A stretch of DNA of 40,511 nt from the NCBI GenBank assembly GCA_016201275.1, contig JACQDB010000045.1, forward strand, positions 2,501-43,011, in the 5' to 3' direction. Both the position numbers and the translations under genes were made by a program. This DNA comes from Acidobacteriota bacterium. GTDB lineage: Bacteria > Acidobacteriota > Blastocatellia > UBA7656. The notes under the pieces are model-generated. The model worked only from the letters and a program-made list of their open reading frames with translations. It did not search any database and had not been told where the DNA came from. Shown in pieces: positions 1-31,456 of the stretch (within the stretch, counting starts at the first letter, position 1; every line of letters begins with the position of its first letter).

Positions 1-212
1 CGGGTTAAAATTCCCGAACCGCTAACAACCGTTTGAGTGTGGAGGGACGCATCAGGGTAGCTGAGACCGGTGATGGATATCCGGTTGAATACGTATAGGC
101 CGTCAGATAGGCAAATCCGTCTGACACTAGGCTAAAGCGTAGGACGAAGGCAATAGCCGCTAAAGTCAGTGACCCCAGATGCCAAGAAAATCTTCGGGCA
201 CGAGGTTGTGAT

Positions 213-244
<32 letters not shown>

Positions 245-265
245 GGGTGAGAATCCTAAGGTCCA

Positions 266-323
<58 letters not shown>

Positions 324-374
324 TGCCACATTAGGGTGAAAGCCCGAAGTGGTCGCAGCGAACAGCGTCAGGCG

Positions 375-410
<36 letters not shown>

Positions 411-411
411 G

Positions 412-463
<52 letters not shown>

Positions 464-486
464 GGGTTAGTCGCAAGGCGAAGCTC

Positions 487-524
<38 letters not shown>

Positions 525-536
525 CGGTCCTAAGGT

Positions 537-1224
537 TAAACGCAAGGCTAGCCTTAGTAAAACTTGGCTATATGCTGGGAAGTCTGAGTATCCTACATTA
601 CTCGTCTTTCAAAGAAAGGCAGTGACAATATGATAGGTGCAGATCATCAGCAGGAAAGACTAAAAACCATCGGATGGATTGTAGGCTTTGTGGATGGGGA
701 AGGGTGTTTTTCGATCACTCTTCAAAAATCCTCATCACTGCTTACCGGCTGGCAGGTTTTCCCCGAGTTTGTCGTAACACAAGGGGCAAAAAGTTTGCAA
801 GCCTTATCTGACCTTCAAAAATTCTTCGGATGCGGAAAGATTTTCTGTAATCGTCGCACGGATAATCACAAAGAGGATTTGTATCGTTTTTGTGTTCGTT
901 CGGTGAGCGATTTACAAGAGAAAATAATTCCTTTCTTTCAAGACAATCCACTTAGAACAGCAAAACAACAAGATTTAGAAAAGTTTGTTCAGGTATTGAG
1001 AATGATGAAAGACAGGAAGCATTTGACGTTTGAAGGTTTGAAAGAAATTGCGTTGATTGTCCAAACAATGAATCGCAAGAAGGCATCCAGGTTTTTAGAA
1101 TCCTCAGAGACTATACGCCAGGCATCTTTTAAAAGATGAAGATATAGTCCGAGCTGCATAGCGATATGCAGAGACTGGCAGAAATGATCAGTCCTTTTAA
1201 CTTCGGTTGAAAGTAACAAGTCTG
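537..1224 (+). ncRNA. Group I intron 1 in 23S rRNA (E. coli position 1931)
   Basis: Self-splicing intron inserted after U1931 of 23S. The 5' exon ends CUAAGGU, which pairs over 7 bp with the internal guide GCCUUAG at 551-557 and forms the required U.G wobble at the splice site. The last intron base, 1224, is G. Core elements seen: P7 strands GACTATA at 1109-1115 and TATAGTC at 1143-1149, a P8 hairpin at 1123-1138, and a P9-like hairpin at 1154-1171 with a GCGA (GNRA) tetraloop. The LAGLIDADG gene at 630-1139 fills the segment between the P4/P6 side and P7. From memory, L1931 is a site used by bacterial (Thermotoga) and organellar introns. It lies 8 nt from the I-CeuI intron site. Confidence 0.93.
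630..1139 (+). CDS. LAGLIDADG homing endonuclease, intron 1
   Basis: A 169-residue protein with a single LAGLIDADG motif near residues 17-26 (GFVDGEGCF), typical of homing endonucleases that act as homodimers. By family it would cut intronless 23S genes near position 1931 and drive intron homing. It is clearly homologous to the second intron's enzyme, sharing the motif, a GCG.I turn, the PFF...PLR block and the SETIRQAS tail. The ATG at 630 lies upstream of the conserved intron segment ATCAGCAGG, so its first dozen residues are encoded by intron core. The last residues and the TGA lie in the P7/P8 core. The Shine-Dalgarno is weak and distant, consistent with expression from a pre-rRNA. Confidence 0.9.
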   Translation: MIGADHQQERLKTIGWIVGFVDGEGCFSITLQKSSSLLTGWQVFPEFVVTQGAKSLQALSDLQKFFGCGKIFCNRRTDNHKEDLYRFCVRSVSDLQEKIIPFFQDNPLRTAKQQDLEKFVQVLRMMKDRKHLTFEGLKEIALIVQTMNRKKASRFLESSETIRQASFKR

Positions 1225-1271
<47 letters not shown>

Positions 1272-1512
1272 CGATCTGACGACTGTCTTAACGAGCAGCA
1301 CAGCGAATTTGTAGTTCCGGTGAAGATGCCGGGTACCCGCGTCTAGACGGAAAGACCCCGTGGACCTTTACTATAACTTGATAGTGATTTCGGGCGTTGG
1401 ATGCGTAGGATAGGTGGGAGGCTTTGAGATCGGGCTTTCGGGCTCGGTGGAGCCAACGGTGAAATACCACCCTTCCTGCGCTTGGAATCTAACCTACCTC
1501 CGTCATCCGGAG

Positions 1513-1561
<49 letters not shown>

Positions 1562-1734
1562 ATGTAACGGAGGCGCGCGATGGTTGGCTCAGGGTGTTTG
1601 GAAATCACCTGTAGAGTGCAAAGGCATAAGCCAGCCTGACTGTGAGACAAACAAGTCGAGCAGAGACGAAAGTCGGCCTTAGTGATCCGGCGGTTCCGCA
1701 TGGAAGGGCCGTCGCTCAACGGATAAAAGGTACC

Positions 1735-1880
<146 letters not shown>

Positions 1881-1897
1881 GAACGTCGTGAGACAGT

Positions 1898-2638
1898 TAG
1901 TGACTTAGCTGTCTGTAAACTTGGCTATATGCTGGAAACTCCGTCCTCAAAGAGAAATTCTGAAGAGGTGTAGAATCTGACACTACTCCAAAAGAGTGAA
2001 AATGTGTTCAGTGCGGACAATCAGCAGGGAAGGCTAAACGATGTTGGAGATAGACATTGGAACAGGGAATTATCTAGCTGGTTTTGCCGACGGGGAAGGA
2101 TGTTTTTATATAGGCATTCATCCAACGTCGAATGTATCGCAAGGCTTGCAAGTGGTTCCAGAGTTTCAGGTCAGCCAAAATGAAGAGAGAATTTCGGTGC
2201 TGAAGTTATTTGTTGATGTGCTTGGTTGTGGTTCAATCAAGAAAAACGCACCGGCAGACTCACGCGATAAAACTTATGTTTATGTCGTGAAAAGGCACGA
2301 TGATTTGTTCGAGAGATTGCTCCCGTTCTTCCGACGCTTTCCTTTGCGTTCGGAAAAACATCAAGAGTTTCTCAAGTTCAGTCAAGTGATTGAGATGATG
2401 CACCGCAAAGAGCATCTCGCTGCTGAGAGCTTGAAAAAAATAATTGAGATTGCATTCTCAATGAATGATTCAAAGTATCGCAAGCATAAATTGGCAAATC
2501 TTCTACAATGTTTAGAACCCTCAGAGACTATACGCCAAGCATCTTTATGATGAAGATATAGTCCGAACTGCATAGCGATATGCAGAAGCAAGCAGAAATG
2601 TCTTGCTCGCTCCGAATTTTCGGAGAGGTAACAGAATG
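1898..2638 (+). ncRNA. Group I intron 2 in 23S rRNA (E. coli position about 2604)
   Basis: Second self-splicing intron, inside the peptidyl-transferase loop. The 5' exon ends AGACAGU, which pairs over 7 bp with the guide GCUGUCU at 1908-1914, giving U.G at the splice site. The final intron base, 2638, is G. P7 strands are GACTATA at 2526-2532 and TATAGTC at 2557-2563, and the same CTGCATA-GCGA-TATGCAG hairpin lies at 2568-2585. Core blocks (ACTTGGCTATATGCTGG near 1919-1935, and 2517-2585) are nearly identical to intron 1 while the guide differs, so the two are siblings retargeted to different sites. I place the insertion after U2604 by counting from A2602; it is not the L2593 site. Confidence 0.92.
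2041..2550 (+). CDS. LAGLIDADG homing endonuclease, intron 2
   Basis: A 169-residue single-motif LAGLIDADG protein (AGFADGEGCF near residues 13-22), presumably homodimeric and specific for the 23S site interrupted by this intron. The ATG at 2041 follows a good Shine-Dalgarno (AGGGAAGG) at about 7 nt. It lies just after the conserved AATCAGCAGG core segment, so unlike its sibling it does not read through that segment. The reading frame ends inside P8, and the SETIRQAS tail is encoded by the P7/P3 core. Much of the body has diverged from the intron 1 enzyme, as expected if the two recognise different targets. Confidence 0.91.
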   Translation: MLEIDIGTGNYLAGFADGEGCFYIGIHPTSNVSQGLQVVPEFQVSQNEERISVLKLFVDVLGCGSIKKNAPADSRDKTYVYVVKRHDDLFERLLPFFRRFPLRSEKHQEFLKFSQVIEMMHRKEHLAAESLKKIIEIAFSMNDSKYRKHKLANLLQCLEPSETIRQASL

Positions 2639-2760
2639 TCGGTCCCTATCTGGCGTGGGCGTAGGAGAATTGATGGAATCTGGCCGTAGTACGAGAGGAC
2701 CCGGTTGGACCAACCTCTAGTGTACCAGTTATCGTGCCAACGGTAGCGCTGGGTAGCTAT

Positions 2761-2807
<47 letters not shown>

Positions 2808-3031
2808 AAAGATTAGTTCTCCCTATGAGATCCCTGGAAGACTACCAGGTTGATAGGCTGGGTGTGTAAGTACAGTAATGTATTTAGCTAACCAGTACTA
2901 ATTCGATCCATCGGCTTGATCATAAAGTTTGCTGTTCACATTCTCATCAGCACACTTGATTTTTACGCACTACAATTGCGATATTTTGCCTGTTCAATTA
3001 TCTGAGAACACGCTTTTTGTTCTTTACAGTT

Positions 3032-3362: not shown

Positions 3363-3715
3363 GTAACTACCCAGATTGGTTGAACATTGCCGGTCGCTTC
3401 GTTGTTGCGCTGTCGGCGCACGGGAGAGCCAAGCCAGCGGTCAGAGGCCTCTGCTCAACGAGAATCGGGGGATTATATTCTCTTCCCCTCCTCTTAGTTT
3501 TTGCGCCAGAGGCGCAGCGGAGATTAGCCCGTGGTAGCGCCACGGGAAGGCACAGGCGGCTTGATGGTCGCGCCCTGAAAGGGTGCAGGAGACTTGTAGC
3601 GTCGCATCTCCTGCACCCTTTCAGGGCGCACAGCGTTTGTCCAACTTGATTCCAGTGCCATAGGCACTGACTAATTTCCTACATCCCTGCGGAGCCAATA
3701 CGGCTGGGTCGTTAC
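3363..3715. mobile_element. IS66-type MITE-like element 1
   Basis: A 353-bp intergenic element with terminal inverted repeats: GTAACTACCCAG on the left, and GTAACGACCCAGCC on the right when read inward. It is flanked by a perfect 8-bp direct repeat, TTTTCTTA, at 3355-3362 and 3716-3723. There is no plausible coding content. The interior is a run of hairpins, including a perfect 22-bp inverted repeat (3570-3591 with 3608-3629) and a GCGCC-N3-GGCGC stem. Termini beginning GTAA and an 8-bp duplication match the IS66 family as I remember it, so a trans-acting IS66 transposase is the likely mover. Confidence 0.85.
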
Positions 3716-6756: not shown

Positions 6757-7199
6757 GTACCTCCCCAGTCGGTTTGAAAATTGCGGGTCGCTTCGTTGTT
6801 GCGCTGTCGGCGCACTGGAGAGCCAAGCCAGCGGTCACAGACCGCTGCTCAACGGGAATGATGGGATTATATTTTCTTCCCCCTCCCTTAGCCAGCGGTC
6901 AGAGACCGCTGCTCAACGGGAATTCGTTTTTGCGCCAGAGGCGCATAGAAGAATAGCTTGTAGGAGCGCCACGGGAATTCGTTTTTGCGCCAGAGGCGCA
7001 GCGGAGATTAGCCCGTGATAGCGCCACGGGGAGGCGAAAGCGGCTTGATGGTCGCGCCCTAAAGGGTGCAAGAGGTTTGCAGCCTCGCCTCTCCTGCACC
7101 CTTTCAGGGCGCGCAGCGTTTGCCCAACATGATTCCAGTGCCTACAGCACGGGCGAATCTCCTGCACCCCTTGCGGGGCAAAGCAGGCTGGGTAGTTAC
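6757..7199. mobile_element. IS66-type MITE-like element 2
   Basis: A 443-bp element flanked by a perfect 8-bp direct repeat, GATAAAAG, at 6749-6756 and 7200-7207. The right end reads GTAACTACCCAGCC inward; the left end is slightly decayed (GTACCTCCCCAG). Its left half is closely similar to element 1 (shared block from 6779, ATTGCGGGTCGCTTCGTTGT). The units CCAGCGGTCA-AGACCGCTGCTCAACGGGAA and TTTTTGCGCCAGAGGCGCA each occur twice, which explains its greater length. It lies between divergent genes. No coding region is credible. Confidence 0.83.
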
Positions 7200-25199: not shown

Positions 25200-25685
25200 A
25201 TGGATCAAAGAGAGAAAGACCGCTTGCTGAACAATCTGCGTTCGTTGCCCAATGAATTGGCCGATTTGCTTGGCGATCTTGATGACGAGACAATGCGCTG
25301 GCGACCGATTCCCAACAAATGGTCAATCCAGGAAATCATGTGTCACTTGCGCGATATGGAGCGACTGGCTTATCTGGCGCGCTATCGAAAAATTCTCGCC
25401 GAAGAGAATCCGTACTTGGAAAATGTGGATCAGAATCGGCTGGCTTACGACAACGATTATCTCAATCAAGACACCAGCGCGGCGCTCGAAGAATTCAAGA
25501 ACCTTCGCACCGAAACGGTGCGCGCTCTGGCCGCCATTTCGGTTGAAGACTGGTCACGCGCTGGCGTTCATGAAACTGATGGCCGCTTGACCATCGAACA
25601 ACTGGTCAACCGCCAAATCAACGGCAACGACCTCAATCATCTGAATCAGATGAAAGACATCGTGCGCTTGAAAATGCCCTGGTAG
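25200..25685 (+). CDS. DinB-superfamily protein
   Basis: A 161-residue four-helix-bundle protein (DinB/YfiT-like). It contains PNKWSIQEIMCHLRDMERLAY with a metal-site-type histidine, and a later H in NDLNHLNQMKDI. Family members bind a divalent metal and some are thiol S-transferases; the substrate is unknown here. The ATG at 25200 has GGAG 5 nt upstream. It lies 131 bp after the membrane protein and before moxR, on the same strand. Its role in the cluster is not evident. Confidence 0.82.
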   Translation: MDQREKDRLLNNLRSLPNELADLLGDLDDETMRWRPIPNKWSIQEIMCHLRDMERLAYLARYRKILAEENPYLENVDQNRLAYDNDYLNQDTSAALEEFKNLRTETVRALAAISVEDWSRAGVHETDGRLTIEQLVNRQINGNDLNHLNQMKDIVRLKMPW

Positions 25686-25692
25686 TTATTGA

Positions 25693-25756
25693 TTATTGGT
25701 TACTGGGTAGTTGCCTTCAACCAATAACCAGTAACCAATAACCAATAACCAATGAC
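25693..25756. repeat. TAACCAA tandem repeat with inverted copy
   Basis: An arm TTATTGGTTACTGG at 25693-25706 is the exact inverse of CCAGTAACCAATAA at 25728-25741. Further AACCAAT units run to about 25753. It fills the whole moxR leader, where no Shine-Dalgarno is visible, so a hairpin there could affect moxR translation. Confidence 0.7.
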
Positions 25757-28321: not shown

Positions 28322-28559
28322 GTTTTTGCCAACCCGGTTGAGATTGATGTTAGTTTTTGCGCCGGAGGCGCGTAGGATATGAACCAGTGGTGCAGCCACT
28401 GGGAAGTTGAAAGGCAAGGTATTTCGCGCTCTGAAAGAGCGCAGGAGGTGTGTGTAGCAATCTGCCTCTTGCGTCCCTTCAGGGCGCGAAGCGTTTGAGC
28501 CACGGGATTCCAGCACCTATAGCACTGGCTGATTTCCTCAACCCCTTCGGGGCAATTAC
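28322..28559. mobile_element. Degenerate IS66-type MITE-like element 3
   Basis: It has the same interior hairpin modules as elements 1, 2 and 5: GCGCCGGAGGCGC, CCAGTGGTGCAGCCACTGG, a GCGC-CTGAAAGAGCGC-type stem, and CAGCACCTATAGCACTGG. Both ends are decayed: the left resembles GTTTTTGCCAACCCGG and the right has lost the segment between GGGGCAA and TTAC. No target duplication is detectable. It is probably an older copy. The ends are approximate. Confidence 0.6.
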
Positions 28560-28576
28560 TTTGATTAGGAGTAACT

Positions 28577-29386
28577 TTGCCATTTATCACGATTCCCGAA
28601 TCTCCTCTAAAGCCGCAGCAAAAAGATCTGCAATTGTTTTACCGCGACTATGGCGGCGGCGTTCCGCTGGTGTTTCTGCATGGCGGTTGGGGCTATGAAG
28701 TTTATCCCTTCGATAAACAGATTGCCGCGTTTGCAGAGGATTTCCGCATACTGATTCCCGACCGCACCGGCTATGGACAGTCGCCGCACCTTGATGCGAT
28801 GAGCGCCGATTTTCATCACCATGCCGCTGTAGAGATGCTGCGCTTTCTTGATGCCTTGCATCTTGAACGAGTCTTTTTATGGGGACACAGCGACGGCGCA
28901 GTGATTGCCACGAAGATGGCTTTGCTTGCGCCTACACGATTTTTCGGAGTGATTTTCGAGGCGTTTCATTTCTATAAAGTGAAACCGAGATCACGCGAAT
29001 TTTTCGAGACCATGATGCAAGACCCTGCACAACTGGGTGAGCGCGTCACGCAGGTTCTTGCCGCTGCACACGGCGAAGATTATTGGCAACAGTTGATTCA
29101 ACTCAACGGCATGGCGTGGTTGCAAATCTCCGATCAGAGCCAACATGAAAAAGCCGATTTGTATGACGGGCAACTTTCGCAATTGCAAACTCGCGCCGTC
29201 TTTCTGCACGGCAAACAAGACCCTCGAACCGAAGCCGATGAATTGCAGCAGGTGCAACAACAACTCCCGGATGCGCCGATTCATCTGCTTGACGAAGGCA
29301 AACACAGCCCGCACAGCGAAACGCCAACGGCGGCGGAAACCATCAACCTGGCACGGGCCTTTCTTAAATCGGTGACGCTAAAATAA
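28577..29386 (+). CDS. Alpha/beta hydrolase
   Basis: A 269-residue alpha/beta-hydrolase. The oxyanion segment HGGWG lies near residues 35-39, the nucleophile elbow GHSDG near 108-112 with Ser as nucleophile, an acid residue in the GKQDPRT stretch, and the catalytic His in EGKHSPH near the end. It hydrolyses an ester- or amide-type substrate; specificity is unknown. The start codon is TTG at 28577 after TAGGAG, the third TTG start in this window with a good Shine-Dalgarno. It stands alone, with transposable elements on both sides. Confidence 0.88.
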   Translation: MPFITIPESPLKPQQKDLQLFYRDYGGGVPLVFLHGGWGYEVYPFDKQIAAFAEDFRILIPDRTGYGQSPHLDAMSADFHHHAAVEMLRFLDALHLERVFLWGHSDGAVIATKMALLAPTRFFGVIFEAFHFYKVKPRSREFFETMMQDPAQLGERVTQVLAAAHGEDYWQQLIQLNGMAWLQISDQSQHEKADLYDGQLSQLQTRAVFLHGKQDPRTEADELQQVQQQLPDAPIHLLDEGKHSPHSETPTAAETINLARAFLKSVTLK

Positions 29387-29392
29387 ATTTTT

Positions 29393-29649
29393 GTAACGAC
29401 CCAGCCAGCGCTTGCGGCTGTGCCGCTTTGAGGTGCGGAAAGGCGCAGCCTTTCCGTAAGCTATGCTCCCAACTCTCGCGGCTACGCCGCCCTTGGGCTT
29501 CTGCCTCCAAGCTTTTCTGAGGCGCAGCCTCCTGAGCGGCAGAGCCGCGAAAAAGCAACACCAGCTTAACGGAGAGTCCGAGACTCTCCGCACCTCAAAG
29601 CGGCACAGCCGCACAGCATTCAACTCTCACAACCAGGCTGGGTCGTTAC
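29393..29649. mobile_element. IS66-type MITE-like element 4, long palindrome
   Basis: A 257-bp element bounded by GTAACGACCCAGCC inverted repeats. Including adjacent bases the match is 17 of 17 (29390-29406 with 29636-29652). The flanking octamers AAATTTTT and AAATTCGT match at 6 of 8 positions, a decayed target duplication. The interior differs from the other elements and has a second perfect 26-bp inverted repeat (29414-29439 with 29587-29612), so nearly the whole element can fold as one cruciform. It begins 6 bp after the hydrolase stop. Confidence 0.8.
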
Positions 29650-29760
29650 AAATTCGTACTGAAAAAGTTGAATCATTTTCAAATTCGCCGGAACCCTCGC
29701 TATCATTCGAGCGTAGTTTGACGCGATGCTCGGAATAAATCTTCAAGGAGTCCTCTGTCA

Positions 29761-31194
29761 ATGAAAAAATTTGTCGTCGTGAGCGCTATCATAGCGTTGT
29801 CGGGATTGGTCATGTTGGTTGGCTCCAACATTGGCCAGGCCAACGGCTCAACCGGGAAAAATGTCACCTTCAATAAAGACGTAGCAAAAATTCTCTATAA
29901 AAATTGTGTCGTCTGTCATCGCGCCGATGACATGGCTCCGATGTCTTTGATGAGTTACAAAGAGGCGCGACCGTGGGCGCGTTCGATCAAGGAAAGGGTC
30001 GTCAAAAAAGAGATGCCGCCGTGGCACGCTGATCCCAAGCACGGCGAATTTGCCAATGACCGCCGCTTGACGCAAGACGACATCAACACCATCGTGGCCT
30101 GGGTGGATCAAGGCGCGAAGGAAGGCGACCTCAAAGATTTGCCCAAAGCCCCGGAGTTCGCCGAGAAGTGGCGCAGTGGCAAACCCGATATTATTTTGAC
30201 CATGCCGAATGAATACACGCTCGGCGCAGAAGGCCCGGACGAATATATTTACGCCAAGATTCCGACCAACTTCACAGAAGATGTATGGGTGCAGGCGGTC
30301 GAATCCATTCCCGGCAATCGCAAAATCGTGCATCACATCATCGCCTTTGTGCAGGGGCCGCACCACAATATGAATAGAAGTGCTTTTAGTCCGACCAAAG
30401 AGATGATGGAAAAGATGATGGCGAAGTTGGCCTTCAAAGAGGAAGGCTCGTTGATGCGAACCAAGCCCGATGCGCCGGTCTTCGATAATGGCTGCGCCAC
30501 AGCGGAAGGCGGCGCGGGGATTTTTCTTGATGGCACGGGGCGCGACGAATCCACCGGGATGTTGGGCGGCGAAGCGCCGGGCAGCGATGTGTTTGCGTGG
30601 CCGGTCGGAGCGGCGAAAAAGATTCCCGCCGGTTCGACCATCATTTTACAGATGCACTATGCGCGCAATGGCAAGGTCGAAAAAGACCGCTCCAGCGTTG
30701 GCCTTTATCTGGCCAAGACGCCGCCAACCAGAGAGATGCACACGCAGATGGTGGTCAATTATCACTTCCAGATTCCGCCCGGAGCCGACCATCACGAAGT
30801 CACTGCGTGCTACACCTTCAAGCAAGATGCCCATGTTTATGGCGTGATGCCGCATATGCACCTGCGCGGCAAAGATATGCAGGTGACGGCGTATTATCCC
30901 GACGGGAGTTCGGAAGTGTTAATCAATGTGCCGGACTACAGTTTCAACTGGCAGACCAATTATTATTTGAAGACGCCGAAAGCCATGCCGAAAGGGACGC
31001 GCCTGGAAGTGTTGGCGCATTTCGATAATTCAACCAAGAACAAATTTAATCCCGACCCGACCAAGCCGGTGCGATTCGGCGATCCGACTTACGATGAAAT
31101 GATGATTGGCTTTGTGGATTTCACCAATGACGCGCAGCACCTGAACTTCAAAACCGAAGCGGCAGGCAAAGCGGCGACAGCAAAGAATCAATAA
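29761..31194 (+). CDS. Cytochrome c-copper monooxygenase (PHM-like) fusion
   Basis: A 477-residue exported protein. A signal peptide (about 1-28) is followed by one heme c site, C49-V-V-C52-H53, and the distal MPPWH segment. Residues about 140-460 resemble the two-domain copper type II ascorbate-dependent monooxygenases (PHM/DBH). By comparison from memory with PHM, the first copper would be bound by HH191-192 and H299 (LQMHY), the second by H365/H367 (HMHLRGKDM) and M447 (DEMMIG). All six ligands appear present. The family hydroxylates C-H bonds with O2; here the heme may deliver electrons. The Shine-Dalgarno AAGGAG is about 12 nt upstream. It is transcribed alone and an element starts 6 bp after the stop. 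Confidence 0.85.
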   Translation: MKKFVVVSAIIALSGLVMLVGSNIGQANGSTGKNVTFNKDVAKILYKNCVVCHRADDMAPMSLMSYKEARPWARSIKERVVKKEMPPWHADPKHGEFANDRRLTQDDINTIVAWVDQGAKEGDLKDLPKAPEFAEKWRSGKPDIILTMPNEYTLGAEGPDEYIYAKIPTNFTEDVWVQAVESIPGNRKIVHHIIAFVQGPHHNMNRSAFSPTKEMMEKMMAKLAFKEEGSLMRTKPDAPVFDNGCATAEGGAGIFLDGTGRDESTGMLGGEAPGSDVFAWPVGAAKKIPAGSTIILQMHYARNGKVEKDRSSVGLYLAKTPPTREMHTQMVVNYHFQIPPGADHHEVTACYTFKQDAHVYGVMPHMHLRGKDMQVTAYYPDGSSEVLINVPDYSFNWQTNYYLKTPKAMPKGTRLEVLAHFDNSTKNKFNPDPTKPVRFGDPTYDEMMIGFVDFTNDAQHLNFKTEAAGKAATAKNQ

Positions 31195-31200
31195 TCGGCA

Positions 31201-31456
31201 GTAACGACTCAGCCTGGTTGAAAATTGCCGGTCGCTGAGTTTTGCGCCGGAGGCGCACAAGAAATTAGCCAGTGGGAAAGCCACGGGAAGGCAAAGGGCT
31301 TGACAGTTCGCGCTCTGAAAGCGCGCAGGAGGCTGGCGGCAATCCCTCTCCTGCACCCTTTCAGGGCGCGCAGCGTTTACCCAACTTGGTTCCAGTGCCT
31401 GTCAGCACTGGCTAATCTCCTGCACCCCTGCGGGGCAAATAGCGCTGCGTCGTTAC
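31201..31456. mobile_element. IS66-type MITE-like element 5 with perfect target duplication
   Basis: A 256-bp element with ends GTAACGACTCAGCCTG and, read inward from the right, GTAACGACGCAGCGCT. It is flanked by a perfect 8-bp direct repeat, AATCGGCA, at 31193-31200 and 31457-31464. The interior shares the multi-hairpin body of elements 1-3 (TTTTGCGCCGGAGGCGC, CCAGTGGGAAAGCCACGGG, stems around 31310-31370). No coding potential. The left duplication starts right at the stop codon of the upstream gene. Confidence 0.87.

Follow-up and report, generated by a model that had tools for sequence, protein, structure and literature searches.

A non-autonomous transposon family with near-palindromic bodies and likely IS66-type ends in an Acidobacteriota genome

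Introduction

ISDge4, a member of the ISBst12 group of the IS66 family in Deinococcus geothermalis, is described in the accessible part of its report as an active element with the ends GTGACTACTCAGCA and GTAACTGCTCAGCA that made an 8-bp repeat (PMC12898284). IS66 ends more generally start with GTAAGCG and are accompanied by 8-bp repeats, according to the part available of PMC11946415. Inverted repeats have also been considered from the side of replication. The available text of PMC8604942 treats homogenisation of the arms together with inversion of the spacer, the inversion having been seen with longer arms, as the signature of template switching, and inverted-repeat arms under template switching are likewise dealt with in PMC8794818, as far as its accessible part goes.

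Here we describe a short repeat, element 4, from a window of 40 511 nucleotides, the whole stretch of Acidobacteriota DNA that was analysed. Compared by eye with the ISDge4 ends given in PMC12898284, the end of element 4 agrees at 10 of 14 positions, the majority end of its family (GTAACTACCCAGCC) at 11 of 14 with each of the two, and a variant end (GTAACTACTCAGCC) at 12 of 14. An 8-bp direct repeat is common to ISDge4 and the family. However, ISDge4 encodes a transposase of 449 aa in that account, while element 4 consists of a gene-less, palindromic body.

Results

Structure of element 4

Element 4 (29393–29649, forward strand) is recognised as a 257-bp MITE copy from the 31 copies of its body (type P), from its ends and from its fold. 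It begins with a terminal inverted repeat of 14 bp, GTAACGACCCAGCC (29393–29406, forward strand), the exact reverse complement of which closes the element on the right (29636–29649, reverse strand). A sequence-only reading of the window had described outer arms of 17 bp, and 29390–29406 is indeed the exact reverse complement of 29636–29652; the family end is the 14 bp of GTAACGACCCAGCC, and the outer TTT/AAA of the longer arms are flank bases within the target duplication. That duplication is decayed, its left copy (29385–29392, AAATTTTT) agreeing with the right one (29650–29657, AAATTCGT) at 6 of 8 positions. The inner repeat of 26 bp reported earlier (29414–29439 with 29587–29612) is exact and in fact measures 27 bp, since the pair 29413/29613 can be added. 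The left inner arm (29413–29439, forward strand) thus pairs perfectly with the right inner arm (29587–29613, reverse strand), and both contain covarying columns, as set out below. The smaller hairpins noted in the interior number five: h1 (29437–29455) and h5 (29571–29589) have 8-bp stems, while h2 (29478–29490), h3 (29519–29531) and h4 (29536–29548) have 5-bp stems.

Folded as single-stranded DNA, element 4 reaches –95.6 kcal/mol, whereas shuffled sequences average –45.97 kcal/mol (z –13.75; 0 of 200 shuffles as good), in keeping with the near-cruciform shape that had been attributed to it. The window holds 19 exact 17-nt inverted-repeat seeds within 300 nt, located in elements 4 and 1, while 20 mononucleotide shuffles of it hold none, indicating that the palindrome is not a product of chance. 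Upstream, an alpha/beta-hydrolase gene stops at 29386; downstream, a gene with weak copper-monooxygenase and cytochrome c matches starts at 29761. Two ORFs of at least 80 aa overlap element 4, and neither has a Pfam match at E 0.1.

Elsewhere in the window, the 23S rRNA gene region (1–3000) contains two LAGLIDADG endonuclease ORFs (630–1139 and 2041–2550; PF00961) with repeated flanks, an arrangement suggestive of a pair of related introns within a single rRNA gene. An A/T-rich inverted repeat of 25 nt, 92% complementary and with 15 nt between its arms, lies at 25685–25749.

One set of ends, two bodies

Within the draft assembly of the same genome (6.84 Mb, 162 contigs), the end 14-mer occurs 99 times with at most one mismatch, and GTAACKACCCAGCC is present in 57 exact copies; reversed controls gave 0 in both cases. 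With 40 of 118 first-look candidates scored, the P body matched at least 90 pieces over the two strands; among the loci examined there are at least 31 distinct copies retaining at least 180 bp of body, element 4 included. These counts are lower bounds, as only part of the P candidates were scored. Other copies of this interior, which the sequence-only reading had proposed to look for, therefore exist, and the outcome it had named as contrary, a single-copy gene remnant, is ruled out by their number together with the lack of a Pfam match.

Ends of the form GTAAC(G/T)ACCCAGCC enclose not only P but also a second body, A, for which at least 46 aligned rows including element 5 were obtained (40 of 172 candidates scored). 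Three A-type elements of the window, all on the forward strand, have the same ends as element 4 and exact 8-bp duplications: element 1 (3363–3715, TTTTCTTA), element 2 (6757–7199, GATAAAAG) and element 5 (31201–31456, AATCGGCA). Element 3 (28350–28560, forward strand, limits approximate) is a decayed A-type body with no ends recognisable by eye. The lengths of A-type elements differ, those of the window ranging from 256 to 443 bp, and small hairpin cassettes recur within them, for example at 6826–6859 and 6890–6923 of element 2, which are 97% alike. Among 163 end-like sites in the loci examined, 62 lead into P, 83 into A and 3 into an insert termed R, and 15 fall below the score limit, some of them A- or P-like by eye. 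R (L012, L013) was considered as a third body under the same ends; judged by eye, it appears to be a further MITE that entered the right end of P at a TA, and it is not counted as a body.

Outside the ends, the similarity between P and A is not above chance (54 of 300 shuffles score as high), with the exception of one 30-bp BLAST piece (E 0.006). Elements 1, 2 and 5 thus bear out the proposal that the same ends surround an unrelated interior, and its extension, that transposition ends have been joined to different bodies, agrees with the 8-bp duplications and with the existence of two multi-copy bodies. Folded with RNA parameters, element 5 reaches –123.2 and element 4 –152.7 kcal/mol; both bodies fold back along nearly their whole length, and the near-cruciform shape is therefore not peculiar to element 4.

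Target duplications and nested insertions

Flanking sequences were compared for 73 candidate end pairs, which include a few alternative pairings of one copy. Exact duplications of 8 bp flank 17 of these pairs, exact duplications of 7 bp one and of 9 bp none. Seven or eight of the eight flanking positions match in 23 of the 73 pairs, compared with a mean of 0.49 and a maximum of 4 when right flanks were shuffled (200 shuffles). Element 4 is a copy of a non-autonomous transposon (MITE), a further one of a known kind: it has perfect 14-bp terminal inverted repeats and a length of a few hundred bp, is dispersed in many copies and contains no transposase gene, and its family makes 8-bp target duplications, of which element 4 itself retains six positions.

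The many small hairpins and the high copy number are also reminiscent of REPIN/BIME-like palindromes spread by a RAYT (Y1) transposase. REPIN/RAYT units are characterised by the lack of a target duplication, whereas the P/A family shows 8-bp duplications as well as 14-bp terminal inverted repeats, and Y1 transposition is not known to make either; we regard this origin as scarcely credible.

In a good part of the other 50 end pairs, with fewer than seven matches, the terminal repeat has been interrupted by insertion of a second repeat. Most often this is G, a 98-bp MITE with the ends GAGCGTGTCGCA, for which 218 first-look candidates were found in the genome and 40 scored (L080–L109) and which often lies inside P/A ends. 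The 6-mers flanking G are identical in 11 of 30 copies and agree at five or six of six positions in 19 of 30, and often read TANNTA; the P/A end contains TAACTA. Twelve P/A copies carry G in the right end, and eight of these show a duplication of at least 7/8 around the whole once G is skipped. That P/A and G move together as one composite unit is disfavoured, because G also occurs alone with its own 6-bp duplication. This, along with the P/A duplication around the whole, indicates nested insertion, and the composite repeats at P/A ends are best read as largely nested insertions of the second MITE.

Assignment of the ends

The end type of the P/A family, GTAACTACYCAGCC, starts with GTAA as in IS66/ISBst12 members, which the 8-bp direct repeat likewise matches. 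IS66 genes were matched in 15 of 78 genomes searched. Among 30 IS66 loci of relatives, five (four elements) have end pairs like GTAATTACTCACGG or GTAACTGCTCACGG, while no end pairs of the P/A kind were found at the remaining ones; the 8-mers flanking these four elements, which come from class relatives, match at only 2, 3, 4 and 6 of 8 positions. The IS66 transposase profiles PF03050 and PF13817 had no match in the genome of element 4, and a DDE_Tnp_IS66 transposase is absent from the element itself, which has no Pfam match. Element 4 is therefore at most a MITE with IS66-type ends and not an IS66 element.

Might the ends instead be those of another transposase family, as yet uncharacterised, whose members likewise generate 8-bp duplications? 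The genome's lack of an IS66 match would be in line with this, as would the fact that the end likeness to IS66 rests on 9 to 12 bases compared by eye. However, three other transposase families searched in the genome gave no element with P/A ends. This applies to the DDE_Tnp_1 genes (PF01609, four matches) and the IS1595-type genes (PF12762, two matches), which we reject as mobilising partners, and to the single Mutator-type match (PF00872), a fragment at a contig end whose flanks were left out of the end scan. We consider a different family unlikely, and the P/A ends, judged from their sequence, are likely IS66-type. On this assignment, we infer that an IS66-family transposase acting in trans mobilised both bodies through the shared 14-bp ends; the partner may have been lost or be missing from the draft assembly.

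One insertion sequence of the same genome (L140) has a DDE_Tnp_1 transposase in a 400-aa frame and the ends CTCGACTTTATCCAT. These differ little from those of a third repeat family (CTCGACTTTGTACA), which may thus have a resident partner.

Distribution outside the genome

The host is very likely an acidobacterium: its best named protein relative is Chloracidobacterium sp. UBA7656 (85%), and other protein matches fall in Acidobacteria and Blastocatellia. The P/A family was not seen outside its own genome in the collections searched. A 23-base pattern of the P core had no exact match in genome_contigs and none in viral_contigs, and neither plasmids nor phages contained a match to element 4. Of 57 relative genomes, two contain the exact 14-mer end, each in a single copy, and none the reversed control; a rough estimate would predict about four occurrences. 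The genome of the nearest named relative has six one-mismatch matches to the 14-mer (control 0), one of them with a loose opposite end within 600 bp, and by eye none leads into a P or A body. Among the open-access papers listed, titles and opening parts of abstracts yielded no earlier report of such an element, and no open-access paper was found that combines ISBst12 and MITE; both are weak evidence of absence.

Matched arms and inverted spacers

The arms and hairpins were analysed in an alignment of 30 P copies. Inner-arm mismatches amount to 40 in the 30 copies, compared with a mean of 58.7 when arms are given shuffled partners (minimum 44, 5000 shuffles), and the inner arms are perfect in 10 of the 30 copies, against 3.3 with shuffled partners (maximum 9). 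The covariation score of the arms is 0.095 compared to 0.068 in shuffles (0 of 500 as high), slid versions giving at most 0.029, and 19 arm cells are changed on both sides, compared to 10.9 (3 of 500 as high). Counted by arm pair, changes on both sides number 7 against 6.7 in shuffles, and one slid version gives 10. The strongest covarying pairs change from U-A to G-C in seven copies and from G-C to U-A in five. The five local hairpins contain three changes affecting both sides, where shuffles give 1.0 and 27 of 500 reach that number. A tree of the P copies, built with the arms left out, is near-star, with 1 of 27 inner branches well supported and a median end branch of 0.12. Relatedness can mimic covariation, and the near-star tree thus makes the shuffle control fairer. 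A tree-based covariation test was not significant, significance being out of reach with only two usable pairs.

Spacers are inverted among the copies as well. The loop triplets of h1 and h5 are present in both orientations, with, by simple count, six and five minority copies, respectively, and no pairs that are merely reversed; the loops of h2–h4, on their 5-bp stems, show no inversion among copies. Two of the 30 copies (L004, L056) carry their entire interior in the opposite orientation between the arms.

The sequence-only reading had taken the perfect match of the arms to imply recent formation or selection. For a recent single-event formation of the perfect palindrome speak the perfect arms of element 4, the 0 consensus changes in its 106 arm, arm-loop and stem sites, and an end branch of 0.055, which is below the median and places it among the less diverged copies. 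Perfect arms are, however, shared by a third of the copies aligned, and element 4 itself departs from the consensus at 10 of 108 unpaired sites and at 4 of 15 loop sites. A recent single event is thus very improbable: element 4 is an aged copy, P copies form an old, star-like tree, and its hairpin shape is a family trait rather than a sign of newness. Of the two earlier options, recent formation is not supported and selection on stems may have contributed, yet the pair is too narrow, arm homogenisation by template switching being a further option. From the pattern as a whole we infer that the inner arms of P are kept matched by template switching between them, which during replication would copy changes from one arm to the other and would sometimes invert a loop or the whole interior.

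Shortened copies

The sequence-only reading had expected arms this symmetric to threaten replication; palindromes as small as element 4 are generally tolerated, and five shorter copies made up of a single long hairpin persist in the genome. Deletions within the palindrome, which that reading had proposed to seek in population data, are present among the copies of this genome. In the five copies, from the loci examined (L026, L065, L068, L073, L083), the left arm is joined straight to h5 and the right arm; each forms one long hairpin with a 3-nt loop. Over 32 positions these hairpins have 1 to 3 mismatches, one of which is the loop where its outer bases are unpaired. L065, at 123 bp, retains an exact duplication, and L068 does not (4 of 8). 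A copy of 83 bp (L074) likewise has an exact duplication. In addition, the alignment, inspected by eye, shows single hairpins missing wholly or partly: h3 is deleted in L072 and L058, h4 in L064, and h2 in part in L076 and L057.

Constraint on the stems

Variation was mapped onto a structure set by hand from element 4 for 28 copies, the two inverted ones being left out. Non-majority cells make up 2.8% of arm stems and 2.8% of local stems, compared to 13.9% of unpaired sites, 13.7% of arm loops, 31.1% of hairpin loops and 14.4% of ends. With the RNA fold of element 4 as the structure, the values are 5.8% for paired sites, 16.8% for other unpaired sites and 23.6% for hairpin loops, an approximately threefold contrast. 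Depending on the structure used, variation in P stems is therefore three- to fivefold lower than at unpaired sites, a contrast that alignment error in the unpaired parts may inflate. In body A the contrast nearly vanishes (paired 9.6%, unpaired 11.4%, hairpin loops 33.9%), which argues against a general rule. Private changes are found in 37 of 2751 stem cells and 62 of 2928 unpaired cells, and so are about 1.6 times rarer in stems.

By our reasoning, homogenisation alone would let paired stems change at a near-neutral pace, so something held the stems. Because the private changes are less skewed, the constraint appears to fall mainly on copies that went on to multiply. The low variation of P stems relative to unpaired sites indicates that structure probably mattered during the spread of the P copies; the folded shape of the body would then count while copies spread.

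The same low stem variation could arise if the string of hairpins has a role for the host once inserted, such as terminating transcripts or stabilising RNA, and selection in place keeps the stems. Elements 4 and 5 each begin 6 bp past a stop codon, and among the 29 copies with a duplication of at least 6/8, 21 have no open frame of at least 110 codons touching either edge, as a host role would have it. Yet the nearest long ORFs of these 29 copies present 32 tails and 26 heads, which does not support a bias to gene 3' ends. The other eight copies have a long open frame at one edge or, in two cases, at both, and some may therefore be located within genes; most insertions, though not all, lie outside long open frames. 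Terminator-like sites in 29300–29800 number 2 against 0.8 (sd 1.0) in shuffles, and with private changes so little rarer in stems, most of the constraint seems to predate insertion. A host role is accordingly quite unlikely in our judgement, and constraint during spread is the reading that we prefer.

Discussion

Two points are of interest here: a single set of ends carries two palindromic bodies unrelated to each other, and one genome preserves a record of arm homogenisation and inversion. We consider it probable that element 4 is a MITE copy with ISBst12/IS66-type ends that was mobilised in trans, whose arms were matched by template switching and whose fold mattered in its spread. Dozens of diverged palindromic copies in a single genome constitute a natural record of inverted-repeat evolution in bacteria, in which each copy can be scored for the match of its arms, for inverted loops or interiors and for lost hairpins. 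If the constraint on stems during spread holds, MITE bodies would not be passive filler.

A bolder reading, to which we give only tentative credence, is that IS66-type ends carry two unrelated near-palindromic bodies whose stems were selected in spread, so that the fold is a working part of the mobile unit, its perfection serviced by template switching. Were this true, the folded body could, for example, assist in transposition itself, in evading host control or during a single-stranded stage.

Among described MITEs, QMITE2 of Coxiella burnetii resembles element 4 in being short, lacking a transposase and having terminal repeats, and further in its direct repeats of 7–9 bp and its stable fold of the whole element, as presented in the accessible part of a review of prokaryotic MITEs (PMC10969869); its ends differ from those of element 4. 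The words IS66, hairpin and nested are absent from that review. With regard to the arms, the systems in the available text of PMC8604942 and PMC8794818 share with the P copies both arm homogenisation and inversion of the spacer between the arms. Those systems, however, are yeast coding genes and RNA genes, whereas the arms described here belong to dispersed copies of a transposon.
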